Shown piece by piece: positions 10,693 to 48,461 of a DNA stretch of 64,000 nt. The notes below the pieces were generated by a model. It worked only from the letters and a program-made list of their open reading frames with translations, had not been told where the DNA came from and did no database searches. The position numbers and the translations under genes were made by a program. Origin of the DNA: Thalassospira australica (GTDB lineage: Bacteria; Pseudomonadota; Alphaproteobacteria; Rhodospirillales; Thalassospiraceae); contig NZ_JRJE01000005.1 of NCBI RefSeq assembly GCF_000763295.1, positions 62,001 to 126,000 of the forward strand, given 5' to 3'. Every line of letters starts with the position of its first letter. Within the stretch, counting starts at the first letter, position 1.

Positions 10693-13161
10693 GTGCCACA
10701 AGAAAGCCCTGATAAACAAAGGCTTAGATGGCGAAATCGTTTGTCTTTCAGACAAGCACGGATTGCCGTTGGCCTGACGTTGCTGATCGGCTTGCTGTTC
10801 AGTGGCATACAAATTCTGTGGGACCTGCGCGAAGAACAAAGCCTGATCGACCGAACCGTCAATCAGGTTTTGGCAACACTACGCGACTCTGCAACACAAG
10901 CGGCCTATGGACTCGACGAAACACTGGCATCACGCGTTGTTTCAGGGGTCTTCGAATATAAACCGGTCTATGAGGCCGTTCTGCGCGATAACTTCAATAA
11001 TATCCTTGCCCAGAAAACCGAGCCGCCGGTCAGTTCCAACAGCACCTTCCTGACCACGTTGATGTTTGGCGAGAATCAGGAATATGAAATCAAACTTGAT
11101 ACGGGTGGCTCGAACGGCCTGGTTGGACATCTGAGCGTCAAGATCGATACAGACCTTATCGCAGACGGTTTCCTGAACCGTGCAACCCGAATTCTGATGT
11201 CGGGCATTTTACGGAACCTGCTGCTTGGTCTGGTTCTGGTGACTTTTTTCTATGCGACGCTCACCAAACCGCTGTTAAACATCGCCGCGCAGCTCGGTAA
11301 AATAGATCCGGCAAAACCAGACAGTGCGGAAATCATCGTCCCACCACAGCATACGCACAACGAACTGGGCATGATCCTGCAAACCACACGCACCCTGATC
11401 GGACGCGTTTCTTCCACCCTGAACAAACTGCGTGAAACCGAAAAACAGGTGCGGGACCGTGAAAGCCAGTTAAATGCCATTGTCCAGAATGTCGCCGACG
11501 GGATCCTGACCATTACCCCGACTGGCCGCATCGTTGAATACAACGCGGCAACCAAACAGCTTCTGGGGCTGCTGCGCGATGAAACGCCAAAGGGACGAAC
11601 ACTTCAAGAATTCCTGATGCCGCGCGCGATACCAGTTCTTGAACACAGCCTTGAAGAACTCGCAGATCATGCCCCGCACGGCGATGTGGTCGAAAAGCGC
11701 CTGACAATACCCGTCGTGCGAGCTGACCAAAAAGAGATCGATGTATCGATTGCGCTGCGCCTGATACCTGATGCCAGTACACCACTGATGACGGCCGTGC
11801 TAACCGACATCACAGTGCGCAAACGCTATGAAGAGCAACTGCTCTATATGGCCAATCATGACACGTTGACCAACCTGCCCAACCGCAGCATGCTGGAACG
11901 CAGCCTGACCGAAGCCTTGCAGAGCCATAAGGAAAACTCCGGTAAACAGGTGGGGGCAACAGCAGTCCTGTTCATTGACCTTGACCGTTTCAAGCTCATC
12001 AATGACAGCCTTGGTCATAACGTCGGAGATATGCTGCTCAAGGCGGTTGGACTGCGATTGCAACGCGTCATCGGCCGTCAGGAAATTGTGGGGCGTCTGG
12101 GCGGGGATGAATTCCTGATCATTATTCCCAACCTCAAGGAAACGCAGGACGCAGCAAAGCTGTCGCAAGCTGTGCTTGATGTGCTTGCCCCCGCCTTTGA
12201 CATCAAGGGGCGGGTCCTGTTTGTCACGCCGTCGATTGGAATTGCACTGTATCCATCAGACGGTGAAGATTTCCCGGCACTGATGCGCAATGCCGATACG
12301 GCAATGTACAGTGCCAAGGCCAGCGGCGGTGGCACATATCATTTCTTCACCAAGACCATGAATGAAAGTGCCGTCGCACGTTTGGTGATCGAAAATGATC
12401 TGCGCGAAGCGCTGGTGAAGGATGAGTTCGAACTGCATTACCAGCCCAAGGTCGATCTGCGCACCAATCGGGTTTGTGGTCTTGAGGCCCTTATTCGCTG
12501 GAAGCAACCCGGTCGTGGTTATATCTCGCCAATGCAATTCATCCCGGTTGCCGAAGAAACCGGCCTTATCGGTAAAATTGGTGAATGGGTCTTCAAAGAA
12601 GTTTGTCGGCAAATTTCAGAATGGGACGCCCAATCAGTCCCCCCACTTGCCATTGCGATCAATCTGTCTCCACGGCAATTGATCGAAGGCCATATCACCG
12701 AAACTGTTTCACGCATCCTGAGCGAAACAGAAACGTCAGCGGCAAGAATTGTTCTTGAAGTCACCGAAACGGCAATGATGCAGGAAATCAAGAAGTCCGC
12801 TGTGATACTTGAAGAACTGCGCCATCTTGGCTTGCAGATTGCTGTTGATGATTTTGGCACTGGCTATTCATCACTGGCGTATCTTAAACGGTTGCCCATC
12901 AATACCATCAAGATTGATAGATCGTTTGTGCGCGATGTCACCATTGATGCCGACGACGCTGCCATCACACGAACCATCATCGCGATGGGGCACAACCTTG
13001 GCCTTAAAGTGGTCGCCGAAGGGGTCGAAACCAATGAGCAGATGGACTTCTTGCGAAATTGCGATTGCGACGAAGTTCAGGGCTTCCTGATCTCAACCCC
13101 ATTGCCACCCGACGAAATTGTTGACCATATTATGCGCCCATCTGCCGAAGTCCAAAACTAA
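10693..13161 (+). CDS. Membrane GGDEF-EAL protein with PAS domain
   Basis: An 822-residue cyclic-di-GMP enzyme candidate. Transmembrane helices at about 22-43 and 171-190 flank a periplasmic sensor region; a HAMP-like linker follows (about 190-245), then a PAS domain (about 257-375), a GGDEF domain with an intact GGDEF motif at 470-474, and an EAL domain with EAL at 598-600 plus the downstream DDFGTGYSS and EGVET motifs. Both synthase and phosphodiesterase active sites look complete, so the net direction cannot be predicted. The start is GTG at 10693, preceded by a G-rich stretch. It is first of an apparent four-gene signalling unit. Confidence 0.92.
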   Translation: MPQESPDKQRLRWRNRLSFRQARIAVGLTLLIGLLFSGIQILWDLREEQSLIDRTVNQVLATLRDSATQAAYGLDETLASRVVSGVFEYKPVYEAVLRDNFNNILAQKTEPPVSSNSTFLTTLMFGENQEYEIKLDTGGSNGLVGHLSVKIDTDLIADGFLNRATRILMSGILRNLLLGLVLVTFFYATLTKPLLNIAAQLGKIDPAKPDSAEIIVPPQHTHNELGMILQTTRTLIGRVSSTLNKLRETEKQVRDRESQLNAIVQNVADGILTITPTGRIVEYNAATKQLLGLLRDETPKGRTLQEFLMPRAIPVLEHSLEELADHAPHGDVVEKRLTIPVVRADQKEIDVSIALRLIPDASTPLMTAVLTDITVRKRYEEQLLYMANHDTLTNLPNRSMLERSLTEALQSHKENSGKQVGATAVLFIDLDRFKLINDSLGHNVGDMLLKAVGLRLQRVIGRQEIVGRLGGDEFLIIIPNLKETQDAAKLSQAVLDVLAPAFDIKGRVLFVTPSIGIALYPSDGEDFPALMRNADTAMYSAKASGGGTYHFFTKTMNESAVARLVIENDLREALVKDEFELHYQPKVDLRTNRVCGLEALIRWKQPGRGYISPMQFIPVAEETGLIGKIGEWVFKEVCRQISEWDAQSVPPLAIAINLSPRQLIEGHITETVSRILSETETSAARIVLEVTETAMMQEIKKSAVILEELRHLGLQIAVDDFGTGYSSLAYLKRLPINTIKIDRSFVRDVTIDADDAAITRTIIAMGHNLGLKVVAEGVETNEQMDFLRNCDCDEVQGFLISTPLPPDEIVDHIMRPSAEVQN

Positions 13162-27909: not shown

Positions 27910-28175
27910 TAGGGTCAGAACCTACTAATTTGGTTCGACTGGTCGATCCGATTTGTGCGGATACGCGAAGCAAAGACACAGGAAGATATGTATCTTTCAA
28001 GTCTTTGCGACAAAGTTGCCCGTGCAAATCTGATCGATCCGAAAGACAGTGTTTGTATTGGAAAACTCCGGCGTCAAAGCTCTTTGCCGGGACACCAACC
28101 CGCCTAACGGGATTTTCCTTGTATTTTGCCAATACAAACACTGCCACTCCAATCAAATTAATAGGTCCTGACCCA
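27910..28175. repeat. Structured repeat element A, copy 1 (266 bp, TA-bounded, branched palindrome)
   Basis: The left end starts TAGGGTCAGAACCT and the right end finishes AGGTCCTGACCCA, forming imperfect terminal inverted repeats of about 30 bp. Inside, two arms can fold: 27941-27960 with 28020-28040 (enclosing GCAAAGAC/GTCTTTGC and a small AGATA/TATCT hairpin), and GACAGTGTTTGTATTGG (28045-28061) with 28129-28144 (enclosing two short hairpins). Copy 2 at 48194 has the same architecture with compensating changes. It resembles a non-autonomous MITE, or carries a structured RNA or DNA; no transposase is present. It lies between phaAB and an MFS gene. Confidence 0.85.
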
Positions 28176-28271
28176 GGAATGGTCAAGAAAACCCAAACAG
28201 CGCAGCTTTTTACCACACCGCTGTCAAGTGAAGACGATCACCCCCGGTTACAACCGTTGGCCTGCAAAAAC

Positions 28272-35601: not shown

Positions 35602-35872
35602 TTAGGGCCTGTTGACAATCAGAATGCCGTCGTGGCGGGATCGTATTTTTCCGCCAGCAAGAAGTGGATGGCGCAACCTGGCGGGTCCCACGAAAGCCAG
35701 CCGCGACGCCGCAGATGGGAAAACACGCCCCGTCCCAGAGGGATTGCTGCCTAAGGGCGCGAACCCGCGTCCCTCGTCCTTGAATATGCCAAGCATGTCC
35801 TGCGTCCTCACTCCTAATTTCGCGCCCTTAGGCGGCAACCACGGCGATATCCTGATCATCAACAGGCCCTAA
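35602..35872. repeat. Palindromic repeat element B (about 270 bp) between livH and livM
   Basis: The ends are TTAGGGCCTGTTGA (from 35602) and TCAACAGGCCCTAA (to 35872); with gaps the terminal inverted repeat extends about 32 bp. A second inner pair, 35744-35762 with 35820-35838, is a 19-bp inverted repeat with one mismatch. TA dinucleotides bound both ends. Open frames of 86 codons on both strands are by-products of the palindrome. No transposase is encoded, so this looks like a MITE of a different family from element A. The livH stop codon is formed by its right end. Confidence 0.8.
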
Positions 35873-40421: not shown

Positions 40422-43109
40422 ATGTCCATTTGTGGCAAAGACAACCTGAAAACGCGCCGCACGCTGAAAGTCGGGGACAAGTCCGTCGACTATTACAGCC
40501 TCAAAGTTGCTTCCGAGAAATTCGGCGACGTTTCTAAACTTCCCTTCACGCTGAAAGTCGTTCTTGAGAACCTTCTGCGTTACGAAGACGATTTCACCGT
40601 AAAAACCGACGATGTCAAAGCTGTTGTTGATTGGCTCAAAGAGCGCAAGAGCAGCCACGAGATCAACTATCGTCCGGCCCGCGTTCTGATGCAGGACTTC
40701 ACCGGCGTTCCCGCCGTCGTTGACCTTGCAGCCATGCGCGATGCCGTCGTCAACATGGGTGGCGACGCCCAGAAGGTGAACCCGCTTTCACCGGTTGATC
40801 TGGTCATTGACCACTCGGTCATGATTGACTTCTTTGGTACCGACGACGCACTCGACAAAAACATGGAAGTCGAGTTCGAACGTAACGGCGAACGTTATGG
40901 CTTCCTGCGTTGGGGCCAGAATGCGTTCAACAACTTCCGCATCGTTCCGCCAGGGGCAGGTATCTGCCACCAGGTGAACGTCGAGCATCTTGCAAAGGTC
41001 GTTTGGACCGGCGAAGACGAAGACGGCAAAACCGTTGCCTATCCGGATACGCTGGTTGGTACCGACTCTCACACCACCATGGTCAACGGCCTTGCCGTTC
41101 TTGGTTGGGGTGTTGGCGGTCTCGAAGCCGAAGCAGCAATGCTCGGTCAGCCGATCTCGATGCTGATCCCGGAAGTCGTTGGCTTCAAGCTGACCGGCTC
41201 CATGAAAGAAGGCATCACCGCAACTGACCTTGTTCTGCGTGTCGTTCAGATGCTGCGTGAAAAAGGCGTTGTTGGCAAATTCGTCGAATTCTATGGCGAT
41301 GCGCTGGCACACATGAGCCTGCCGGACCGTGCGACCATCGGTAACATGGCCCCGGAATATGGCGCGACCTGTGGTTTCTTCCCGATTGATGACGAAACGC
41401 TCAACTACATGCGTTCGACCGGTCGTGACGAAGAACAGATCGCCCTTGTCGAGGCATATGCCAAAGAACAGGGCATGTGGGGTGATCCGGCACACGAAGC
41501 CGAATACACCGCAACGCTTGAGCTGGACATCTCGACCGTCGAGCCGGCCCTTTCGGGTCCGAAGCGTCCGCAGGACCGCGTTCTGCTGAAAGATGCCGTA
41601 TCAAGCTTCAACAACACCTTTGCTGAAATGGCTCCGGGTGTTGATGCCGATCGTTCTGTTCCGGTTTCGAATGAAAACTTCGAAATGAAAGACGGTAACG
41701 TCGTTATCGCGGCGATCACCTCATGCACCAACACCTCGAACCCGAGCGTGCTGATCGCAGCAGGTCTTCTGGCGAAAAAAGCTGTCGAACTTGGCCTGAC
41801 CAGCAAGCCGTGGGTGAAAACCTCGCTCGCACCGGGTTCGCTGGTTGTTGCCGACTATCTCGAAAAAGCAGGCCTTCAGGATTATCTGGATCAGCTTGGC
41901 TTTAACATCGCTGGTTTCGGTTGCACCACGTGTATTGGCAACTCCGGTCCGCTTGCAGCCCCGATTGCCGGTGCCATTGAAGACAAGGACATGCTGGTAA
42001 CGGCTGTTCTGTCTGGTAACCGTAACTTCGAAGGTCGTATCAGCCCGCACGTGAAGGCAAACTATCTTGCTTCCCCGCCGCTGGTTGTTGCCTATGCCCT
42101 TGCCGGTAACCTCAAGGTCGATCTGGACAAGGATCCGCTTGGTACCGACAAAGACGGCAACGATGTCTATATGAAAGACATCTGGCCGACCAACAAAGAG
42201 ATCGCAGACACCATTGCGTCTTCAATCTCGGCTGCGATGTACAAAGATCGTTATGACAACATCTTTGCAGGTCCGAAGCCCTGGCAGGCAATTGAAGTCA
42301 CCGAAGGCGAAACCTTCGCGTGGGATGGCAAGTCCACCTACGTTCAGAACCCGCCGTACTTCGTCAACATGGCGAAAGAACCGGGTGACTTCTCTGAAGT
42401 TCATGGCGCACGTCCGCTCCTGATCCTGGGTGACTCTGTCACCACCGACCACATTTCTCCGGCCGGCGCGATTAAGGAAGAAAGCCCGGCAGGTGAATAC
42501 CTCAAGGCAAACGGCGTTGCTGTTCGTGACTTCAACTCCTATGGCGCACGTCGTGGTAACCACGAAATCATGATGCGCGGTACCTTTGCCAACATTCGTA
42601 TCCGCAACCAGATGGCACCGGGCACCGAAGGCGGTATTTCGGTCCATTATCCGTCGGGCGAACAGGGCTGGGTCTATGACGTTGCAATGCGTTATCAGGC
42701 CGAAGGCACTCCGCTTGTGGTTATTGCCGGCAAGGAATACGGCACCGGTTCTTCGCGTGACTGGGCAGCAAAAGGCACCAACCTTCTTGGCGTCAAAGCT
42801 GTGATCGCGGAAAGCTTCGAGCGTATCCACCGTACCAACCTGGTCTGCATGGGCGTTCTGCCGCTGCAGTTCAAAAACGGCGAAGGTCGCGAGACCTATA
42901 AGCTGGATGGTTCGGAGACCTTTGACGTTCTGGGCATCGGTGATGGCATCACTCCGCAGCAGGACGTTACGGTTCGCATCACGCGCAAAGATGGCAGCAC
43001 CGAAGTGTGCACCGCCACCTGCCGTATCGATACCGAGAACGAAGTTCTCTACTACCAGAACGGCGGCATCCTGCAGTTCGTTCTGCGTAACATGATGAAA
43101 GCTGCCTGA
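40422..43109 (+). CDS. acnA: Aconitate hydratase A
   Basis: An 895-residue aconitase of the TCA cycle (citrate to isocitrate through cis-aconitate). Iron-sulfur cysteines are seen in SCTNTSNP and [12 protein letters not shown]; the C-terminal swivel domain carries [13 protein letters not shown] 40422 has AGGAGG five bases upstream; an upstream in-frame ATG/TTG region lacks one. A strong terminator follows. A decayed partial copy of its 3' end is found about 0.75 kb downstream. Confidence 0.97.
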
Positions 43110-43798: not shown

Positions 43799-43841
43799 GG
43801 TGCACTTTAAGCACGTTGCCCAATTACAGCAAAGTCCCGCA

Positions 43842-44000
43842 TGTAAATACCTCAAGGCGAGTGGCGTTGCGGTTCGTGACTTCAACCCGTAAGGCGCACG
43901 TCGTGTTAAGCACGACATTTTGATGAAAGCTGCCTGATTTCTTCCTGAAATTTCAGGTTAACATTTCGACATCCCACCGCGTTCCGTTGAGATGTTATTT
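43842..44000 (+). pseudogene. Decayed duplicate of the acnA 3' end (with terminator remnant)
   Basis: Positions 43842-43921 align without gaps to acnA 42494-42573 (TACCTCAAGG...GTTCGTGACTTCAAC) with scattered changes and an in-frame TAA. It then jumps at a shared ATGATG-like sequence to the acnA terminus ATGAAAGCTGCCTGATTTC, so about 0.5 kb of acnA is missing. After the stop, GACATCCCACCG...GAGATGTTATTTTCT resembles a mutated acnA terminator. This fragment is non-functional. Confidence 0.85.
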
Positions 44001-48193: not shown

Positions 48194-48461
48194 TAGGGTC
48201 AGGACCCATTAATTTAGTTCGAATGGTTCACCGGATTTGTGCGGATACACGAAGCAAAACCGCAGGAAGATATACATCTTTCAAGGATTTGCGACAAAGT
48301 AGCCCGTGCAAATCCGGTGAATCCGAAGGACAGACGTTATATTTGCAAACTCCCGCGTCAAACCCCTTGGCCGGGGATATCAGCCCGACCGGCGGGCTTT
48401 TCCTTGGACTTCACAAATATAACGTCTGCCATTCAAACCAAATTAATGGGGCCTGACCCTA
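48194..48461. repeat. Structured repeat element A, copy 2 (268 bp, TA-bounded)
   Basis: The ends TAGGGTCAGGACCCATTAAT and ATTAATGGGGCCTGACCCTA form a terminal inverted repeat of about 33 bp. Arm 1 pairs 48225-48244 with 48304-48324 and encloses GCAAAACC/GGATTTGC. Arm 2 pairs GACAGACGTTATATTTG (48329-48345) with 48414-48430 and encloses GCCCG/CGGGC. The layout matches copy 1 to within two bases in total length. Stem sequences differ from copy 1 on both sides so that pairing is kept. It lies between the SNF transporter and the DUF1223 gene. Confidence 0.87.

Follow-up and report, generated by a model that had tools for sequence, protein, structure and literature searches.

A mobile cloverleaf repeat of Thalassospira with IS5-type ends, and the probable part of DNA template switching in its covarying stems

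The stretch of Thalassospira australica DNA analysed in this study (64,000 nt; the window) has as its longest direct repeat two copies of an element of about 267 nt that consists of an outer stem and two arms. Copy 2 is a full-length element of 268 nt on the + strand (48194-48461), delimited by its fold and by family matches, and it is arranged as a three-way junction. It is flanked by a sodium-dependent transporter gene on one side and by a weak Omp28-like gene on the other, and a search around it found no promoter-like site. The left arm of its outer stem (48194-48226, +) bears an IS5/IS427-type end, TAGGGTCAGGACC, and pairs with the right arm (48429-48461, +), which fold, covariation and comparison with IS ends identified as an inverted copy of the left end. 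Arm 1 (48227-48321, +) scored 109.9 bits with the arm-1 covariance model R1 and combines a variable stem with the conserved internal loops GGAAGAT..ATCTTTCAAG and GCGACAAAGTAG; this architecture recurs in other families. A conserved unpaired inter-arm junction, CCGAAGGA (48322-48330, +), leads to arm 2 (48331-48428, +), in which a stem of 48331-48345 with 48414-48428, supported by covariation, encloses a structured loop. Within that loop, a terminator-like hairpin with a T run (48382-48398, +) was recognised by a consensus match only. Across copies, the arm-2 stem showed two-sided changes in 12 of its 15 pairs, with 98.2% of cells paired. Copy 1 (27910-28176, +, 267 nt) is also full-length, has different stems, and is 82% identical to copy 2 across the first 182 nt. 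Its arm 1 (27943-28037, +) matched the R1 model with 104.5 bits, and its arm 2 (28047-28143, +), with the stem GACAGTGTTTGTATTGG/CCAATACAAACACTG, was defined by its fold and by pair-by-pair comparison. Elsewhere in the window, a 95-nt stretch of the aconitase gene (42481-42575) is repeated with 83% identity 1350 bases downstream (43831-43925), possibly as the remnant of a duplication.

A sequence-only reading of this DNA had claimed that copy 2 keeps the fold of copy 1 through compensatory base changes. The fold itself was confirmed, with a minimum free energy of -130.1 kcal/mol for copy 2 (z -12.5; reached by 0 of 200 shuffles) and of -111.5 kcal/mol for copy 1 (z -10.0; 0 of 200), and all the stem strings cited in that reading were found. 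The compensatory character of the differences held for ten pairs, which were altered on both sides and still Watson-Crick (one in the outer stem, four in arm 1 and five in arm 2), but the pairing was imperfect, since the outer stem also carried about eight one-sided changes and one arm-1 pair was broken in copy 2. Covariation statistics over more copies, proposed in that reading as a check, were run on 52 copies with 84 pairs, and none of 500 shuffles reached the observed value of any measure: 95.4% of cells were paired (shuffle mean 85.5%), two-sided changes occurred in 55 of the 84 pairs (27.9 in shuffles), two-sided cells numbered 404 (99.9), and the covariation score was 0.299 (0.117). Sliding the partners by one base lowered pairing in the same alignment to 42%. 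The cloverleaf pairing is real and not a product of chance, and the evidence for it extends far beyond two copies. The stems of the subfamilies are largely unrelated, and the unpaired segments GGAAGAT..ATCTTTCAAG, GCGACAAAGTAG and CCGAAGGAC are held in common. Tracts that cover one arm only and break the pairing, named beforehand as the pattern that would speak against the claim, were not the pattern observed in the additional copies. In arm 1, the G-U pairs 47/115, 48/114 and 73/88 were nearly fixed.

From the fetched loci of Thalassospira and Nitratireductor, 188 full-length copies of 263-272 nt (most of 266-269 nt) were extracted; the copies were collected by searches and aligned automatically, and the count is not an exhaustive census. 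The T. australica genome gave 37 matches, partial copies included, and matches were present in 22 of the 24 other Thalassospira genomes searched, whereas 16 genomes representing other families of the order had none. Chromosomes and plasmids of Nitratireductor, a genus of another order, also carry the element, as does a MAG with the label Rhodospirillales; the two plasmid copies, both from Nitratireductor, were the only plasmid matches. With the arm-1 covariance model, the architecture was additionally recovered from four other alphaproteobacterial families with unrelated stems. A phage search with the repeat gave no match, and one IMG/VR contig (L290) carries a copy. In Rfam, the window yielded only a tRNA and five loci gave only weak sub-threshold matches (E up to 5); a known RNA family was rejected, as the gathering score was not reached. 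Among the papers searched, none reported such a repeat in Thalassospira. In T. australica, three full or partial copies lie within 3.4 kb (G000:C1:147932-151338), and one of the three (L015) has an inverted arm-2 loop.

Several related repeats were also observed. A third cloverleaf-like repeat in the window (35602-35872, 271 nt, with different ends, TTAGGGCCTGTTGAC...) shares with the main family the layout of outer stem, arm 1, small hairpin and arm 2; the T. australica genome contains one further full-length copy, at 94%, as well as partial ones, and its match to the main-family arm 1 is weak (10.7 bits on the + strand). Another cloverleaf-like family, GAGCCTCA...TGAGGCTC, was seen on the minus strand of L290 (about 10738-11005) and in the flanks of L148 and L005; it has the same layout, shares loop words such as CCTTTCCTTG, and partly adjoins main-family copies. 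In addition, a genome of 1.5 Mb (G263) contains distant relatives (L316, L322, L326 and L330) that apparently consist of arm 1 only, with ends such as TAGAGCAT, and one of them ends beside what by appearance is a tRNA-like sequence.

Comparison of filled and empty sites revealed the mobility of the repeat. In the clearest case, four species have the empty site gccatTAAcaatc where the filled site reads gccatTA[GGG..CCC]TAAcaatc; TA was also present at the empty L082 and L148 sites, and several further sites were too diverged to be read. In the flanks of 150 distinct-site copies, a Y preceded the left TA and an R followed the right TA, giving the target YTAR. The empty sites show TA; duplication of TA and insertion of an AGGG..CCCT element between T and A would yield the identical sequence. 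Several properties of a MITE were observed in the repeat: it is short, it contains no transposase gene, it is present in multiple dispersed copies, and its terminal inverted repeats match those of an IS (L341, L344 and L347/L350/L360, compared with family I and with the L314 repeat). Short derivatives were also found, namely forms lacking arm 1 at three loci with one common breakpoint, 57-bp forms with little beyond the outer stem, a form with the outer stem and arm 2 (L340), and ends spaced 162 bp apart in Nitratireductor. The recurrence of such short forms supports, but does not prove, movement by the ends alone. Three Nitratireductor genomes were scanned for a longer, autonomous version bearing these ends; the end pairs observed lay about 268 or 162 bp apart, and for some ends no partner was present at the mismatch limit used. 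A simple ORF scan placed none of 140 copies inside a spanning ORF, indicating an intergenic location. Relative to their neighbouring genes, 49 copies were antisense to both, 27 were sense to both, 44 lay between divergent genes and 19 between convergent genes. The terminator-like hairpin on the + strand of the arm-2 loop could explain the scarcity of sense insertions.

An end scan of two genomes identified an IS of 850 bp in Thalassospira sp. HJ (L341; L333:773-1622) with the same ends as the repeat, TAGGCTCAGGGCCTATTAATT / TAGGCTCAGGACTCATTAATT, and with IS4/5 and DDE domains. Its DUF4096 and DDE domains exceeded the Pfam cut-offs. Both of its ORFs matched NCBIfam transpos_IS5_3; as the gene is split in two frames, neither reached the cut-off set for the whole protein. 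With an IS5-type transposase, a length within about 830-865 bp and a TA target, this IS has the features of the IS5/IS427 group. Published members of the IS427 group are 832-865 bp long, mostly with 2-bp direct repeats, and several of them have two overlapping ORFs (PMC3281130). Further IS5-type ISs with related ends were found in Thalassospira, and the ISs with IS5-type transposases in the genus measured 837-857 bp. The ends of family I agreed with those of L341 at 20/22 positions on the left and 18/22 on the right, and with those of L344 at 18/22 and 14/22, respectively; the L314 repeat and the L350 left end shared 19/22 positions and then 11 nt more inward, approximately on both arms. Because the arms match the left end of the IS better than the right end, each repeat looks like two inverted IS left ends placed around a cloverleaf module. 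Matching ISs were located in other Thalassospira genomes; the T. australica genome yielded no intact IS whose ends match exactly, and for subfamily II no matching IS was found. These similarities suggest that the repeat may be mobilised in trans by an IS427-group-like transposase of the IS5 family. Two other candidate drivers were rejected: a Y1/RAYT transposase, as the T. australica genome had no PF01797 match, and an IS630/DDE_3 transposase, as PF13358 was sporadic (9 of 29 genus genomes) and none had matching inverted ends. IHF-like sites have been reported for the left ends of IS427-group elements (PMC3281130), and the right outer arm of family I holds AATCAAATTAATA, which is near the IHF consensus WATCAANNNNTTR, with a G-U variant at pair 24/244 in the left arm.

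To follow changes at fixed sites, copies from different species were matched by their shared flanks (k-mers) as occupying one and the same site, which gave 26 comparisons with 2153 pairs. Double Watson-Crick changes numbered 22, against about 0.5 expected by chance as estimated from a one-sided rate of about 2.3% per side, and comprised 13 transitions and 9 transversions. One-sided stem changes produced G-U pairs in 33 cases, A-C in 25 and other mismatches in 26, with no clear preference for G-U, and the ratio of transitions to transversions in stem singles (60:38) was similar to that in loops (90:65). Unpaired positions had diverged by 6.0% and the flanks by 7.5%. Moreover, the arm-2 loop was inverted between its stem arms in two copies. 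Both features by which template-switched inverted repeats are recognised, namely inversion of the spacer and two-sided changes at a single site, were observed. In yeast genes and RNA genes, homogenisation of arms and inversion of the spacer or loop have been published as marks of template switching (PMC8604942, PMC8794818). Divergence differed strongly between same-site and different-site comparisons, being 5.3% and 10.3% in the core loops, 4.0% and 28.4% in the outer stem, and 2.7% and 34.7% in the arm-2 stem, respectively. An RNA under selection is expected to tolerate G-U over A-C and to avoid transversion intermediates. The lack of a clear G-U preference, the many transversion doubles, the drift of the loops and the inverted loops therefore favour template switching over RNA selection. 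Furthermore, the conservation of loops between copies at different sites indicates that structure and loops are kept in the lineages that spread. It had been suggested from the sequence that paired changes of this kind argue either for selection on structure or for a copying mechanism that preserves palindromes; copying fits the resident copies better, and selection is needed for the spreading lineages.

Taken together, the repeat is probably a MITE-like non-autonomous element of Thalassospira that is mobilised in the manner of IS427 and whose resident arms are kept complementary mainly by DNA template switching. The element would insert at the TA within YTAR through the action of an IS427-group-like transposase of the IS5 family, and it would not be merely a shrunken IS, as inverted IS left ends appear to enclose a cloverleaf module. 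In spreading lineages, structure and loops would be maintained by selection during spread, perhaps for mobility. In resident copies, one arm would serve as template for the other during replication, so that a mutation in an arm may be either erased or copied across, and the latter outcome would resemble a compensatory change. Stems at fixed sites diverged less than loops (2.7-4.0% against about 5.3% in most unpaired regions). Simple correction should give stems a loop-like divergence, and their lower divergence therefore counts against pure correction; it is possible that purifying selection, or a bias restoring the original base, also acts on the stems.

This last observation would also be expected if each copy encoded a structured RNA with a function and if the compensatory changes of resident copies came from selection for pairing in that RNA. 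The strong covariation and the conservation of loops between copies are also in accord with such an RNA, and among 150 distinct-site copies the one-sided changes of arm 1 gave G-U mildly more often than A-C (120:85, p 0.017; not significant in the outer stem and arm 2), which, together with the nearly fixed G-U pairs of arm 1, may reflect a role that is strand-specific or exerted as RNA. We nevertheless consider a functional RNA unlikely as the source of the changes in resident copies, because at fixed sites A-C and other mismatches were similarly common to G-U, transversions made up 9 of the 22 doubles, the unpaired positions drifted at 6.0% against 7.5% in the flanks, co-directional copies were antisense to their neighbours more often than sense (49:27), and neither a promoter-like site around copy 2 nor an Rfam match was found. 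Conservation of loops between different sites and their drift at fixed sites would also follow if structure were selected solely at transposition, where the transposase or a host protein would recognise a cruciform or a folded single strand, and if resident copies decayed without correction at the DNA level. This leaves the 22 fixed-site doubles unexplained, and the arm-1-less derivatives (one breakpoint, three sites) and the 57-bp copies imply that the full cloverleaf may be dispensable for movement, so that we regard selection solely at transposition as very unlikely. An ordinary unconstrained MITE with ancestral pairing, in which non-allelic gene conversion produced the differences between copies, would be in keeping with mobile ends and with many copies per genome, but it does not account for same-site doubles that were unique in the sample (in the outer stem, pair 3 of L145 and pair 22 of L094; also one of the L143/L144 states of pair 67) or for core loops kept across families with unrelated stems, and it appears highly improbable. 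A bolder extension, which we put forward only tentatively and hold to be doubtful, is that the arm-1 core represents a structured module not described before, either an RNA or a folded single-stranded DNA, that travels between alphaproteobacterial lineages by taking on inverted copies of various IS5-type left ends, while its resident arms copy each other and thereby mimic a covarying RNA gene although the module is not maintained as such a gene.

Covariation in paired stems is a standard proof of a functional RNA. In the present family, covariation is very strong, yet much of it seems to arise from copying of DNA between the arms, as the same-site comparisons suggest. Thus, where repeats are mobile and palindromic, covariation taken alone can lead the search for new RNAs astray. 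The family provides many replicate sites, or natural experiments, in which template switching can be separated from RNA selection, and it presents a conserved non-coding module associated with IS5-type ends. The mobile nature of the repeat, its IS5 ends and the wider family go beyond the sequence-only reading.

Among known systems, REP/RAYT repeats are likewise palindromic and intergenic; REPs are 20-40 bp long (PMC3733652), and T. australica differs in having no Y1 transposase match. In the Bacillus cereus group, a MITE-like nature has been described for bcr1-bcr3, and secondary structures that are conserved for bcr10 and bcr18 (PMC3446304); by description, the repeats bcr1-bcr18 resemble the present element as short intergenic repeats, although the organisms are unrelated. 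The IS427-group ISs and IS-derived MITEs share with the repeat a TA-type target, TAGGGTC-like ends and the occurrence in the same genus of ISs with IS5-type transposases. In contrast to these elements, the interior of the repeat was not seen in the IS, the cloverleaf module occurs with several different ends, and the left end of the IS is the one that both arms resemble. Template-switched inverted repeats show the same homogenisation of arms and inversion of the loop or spacer, whereas the repeat described here is a multi-copy bacterial mobile element that occupies the same sites in many species.
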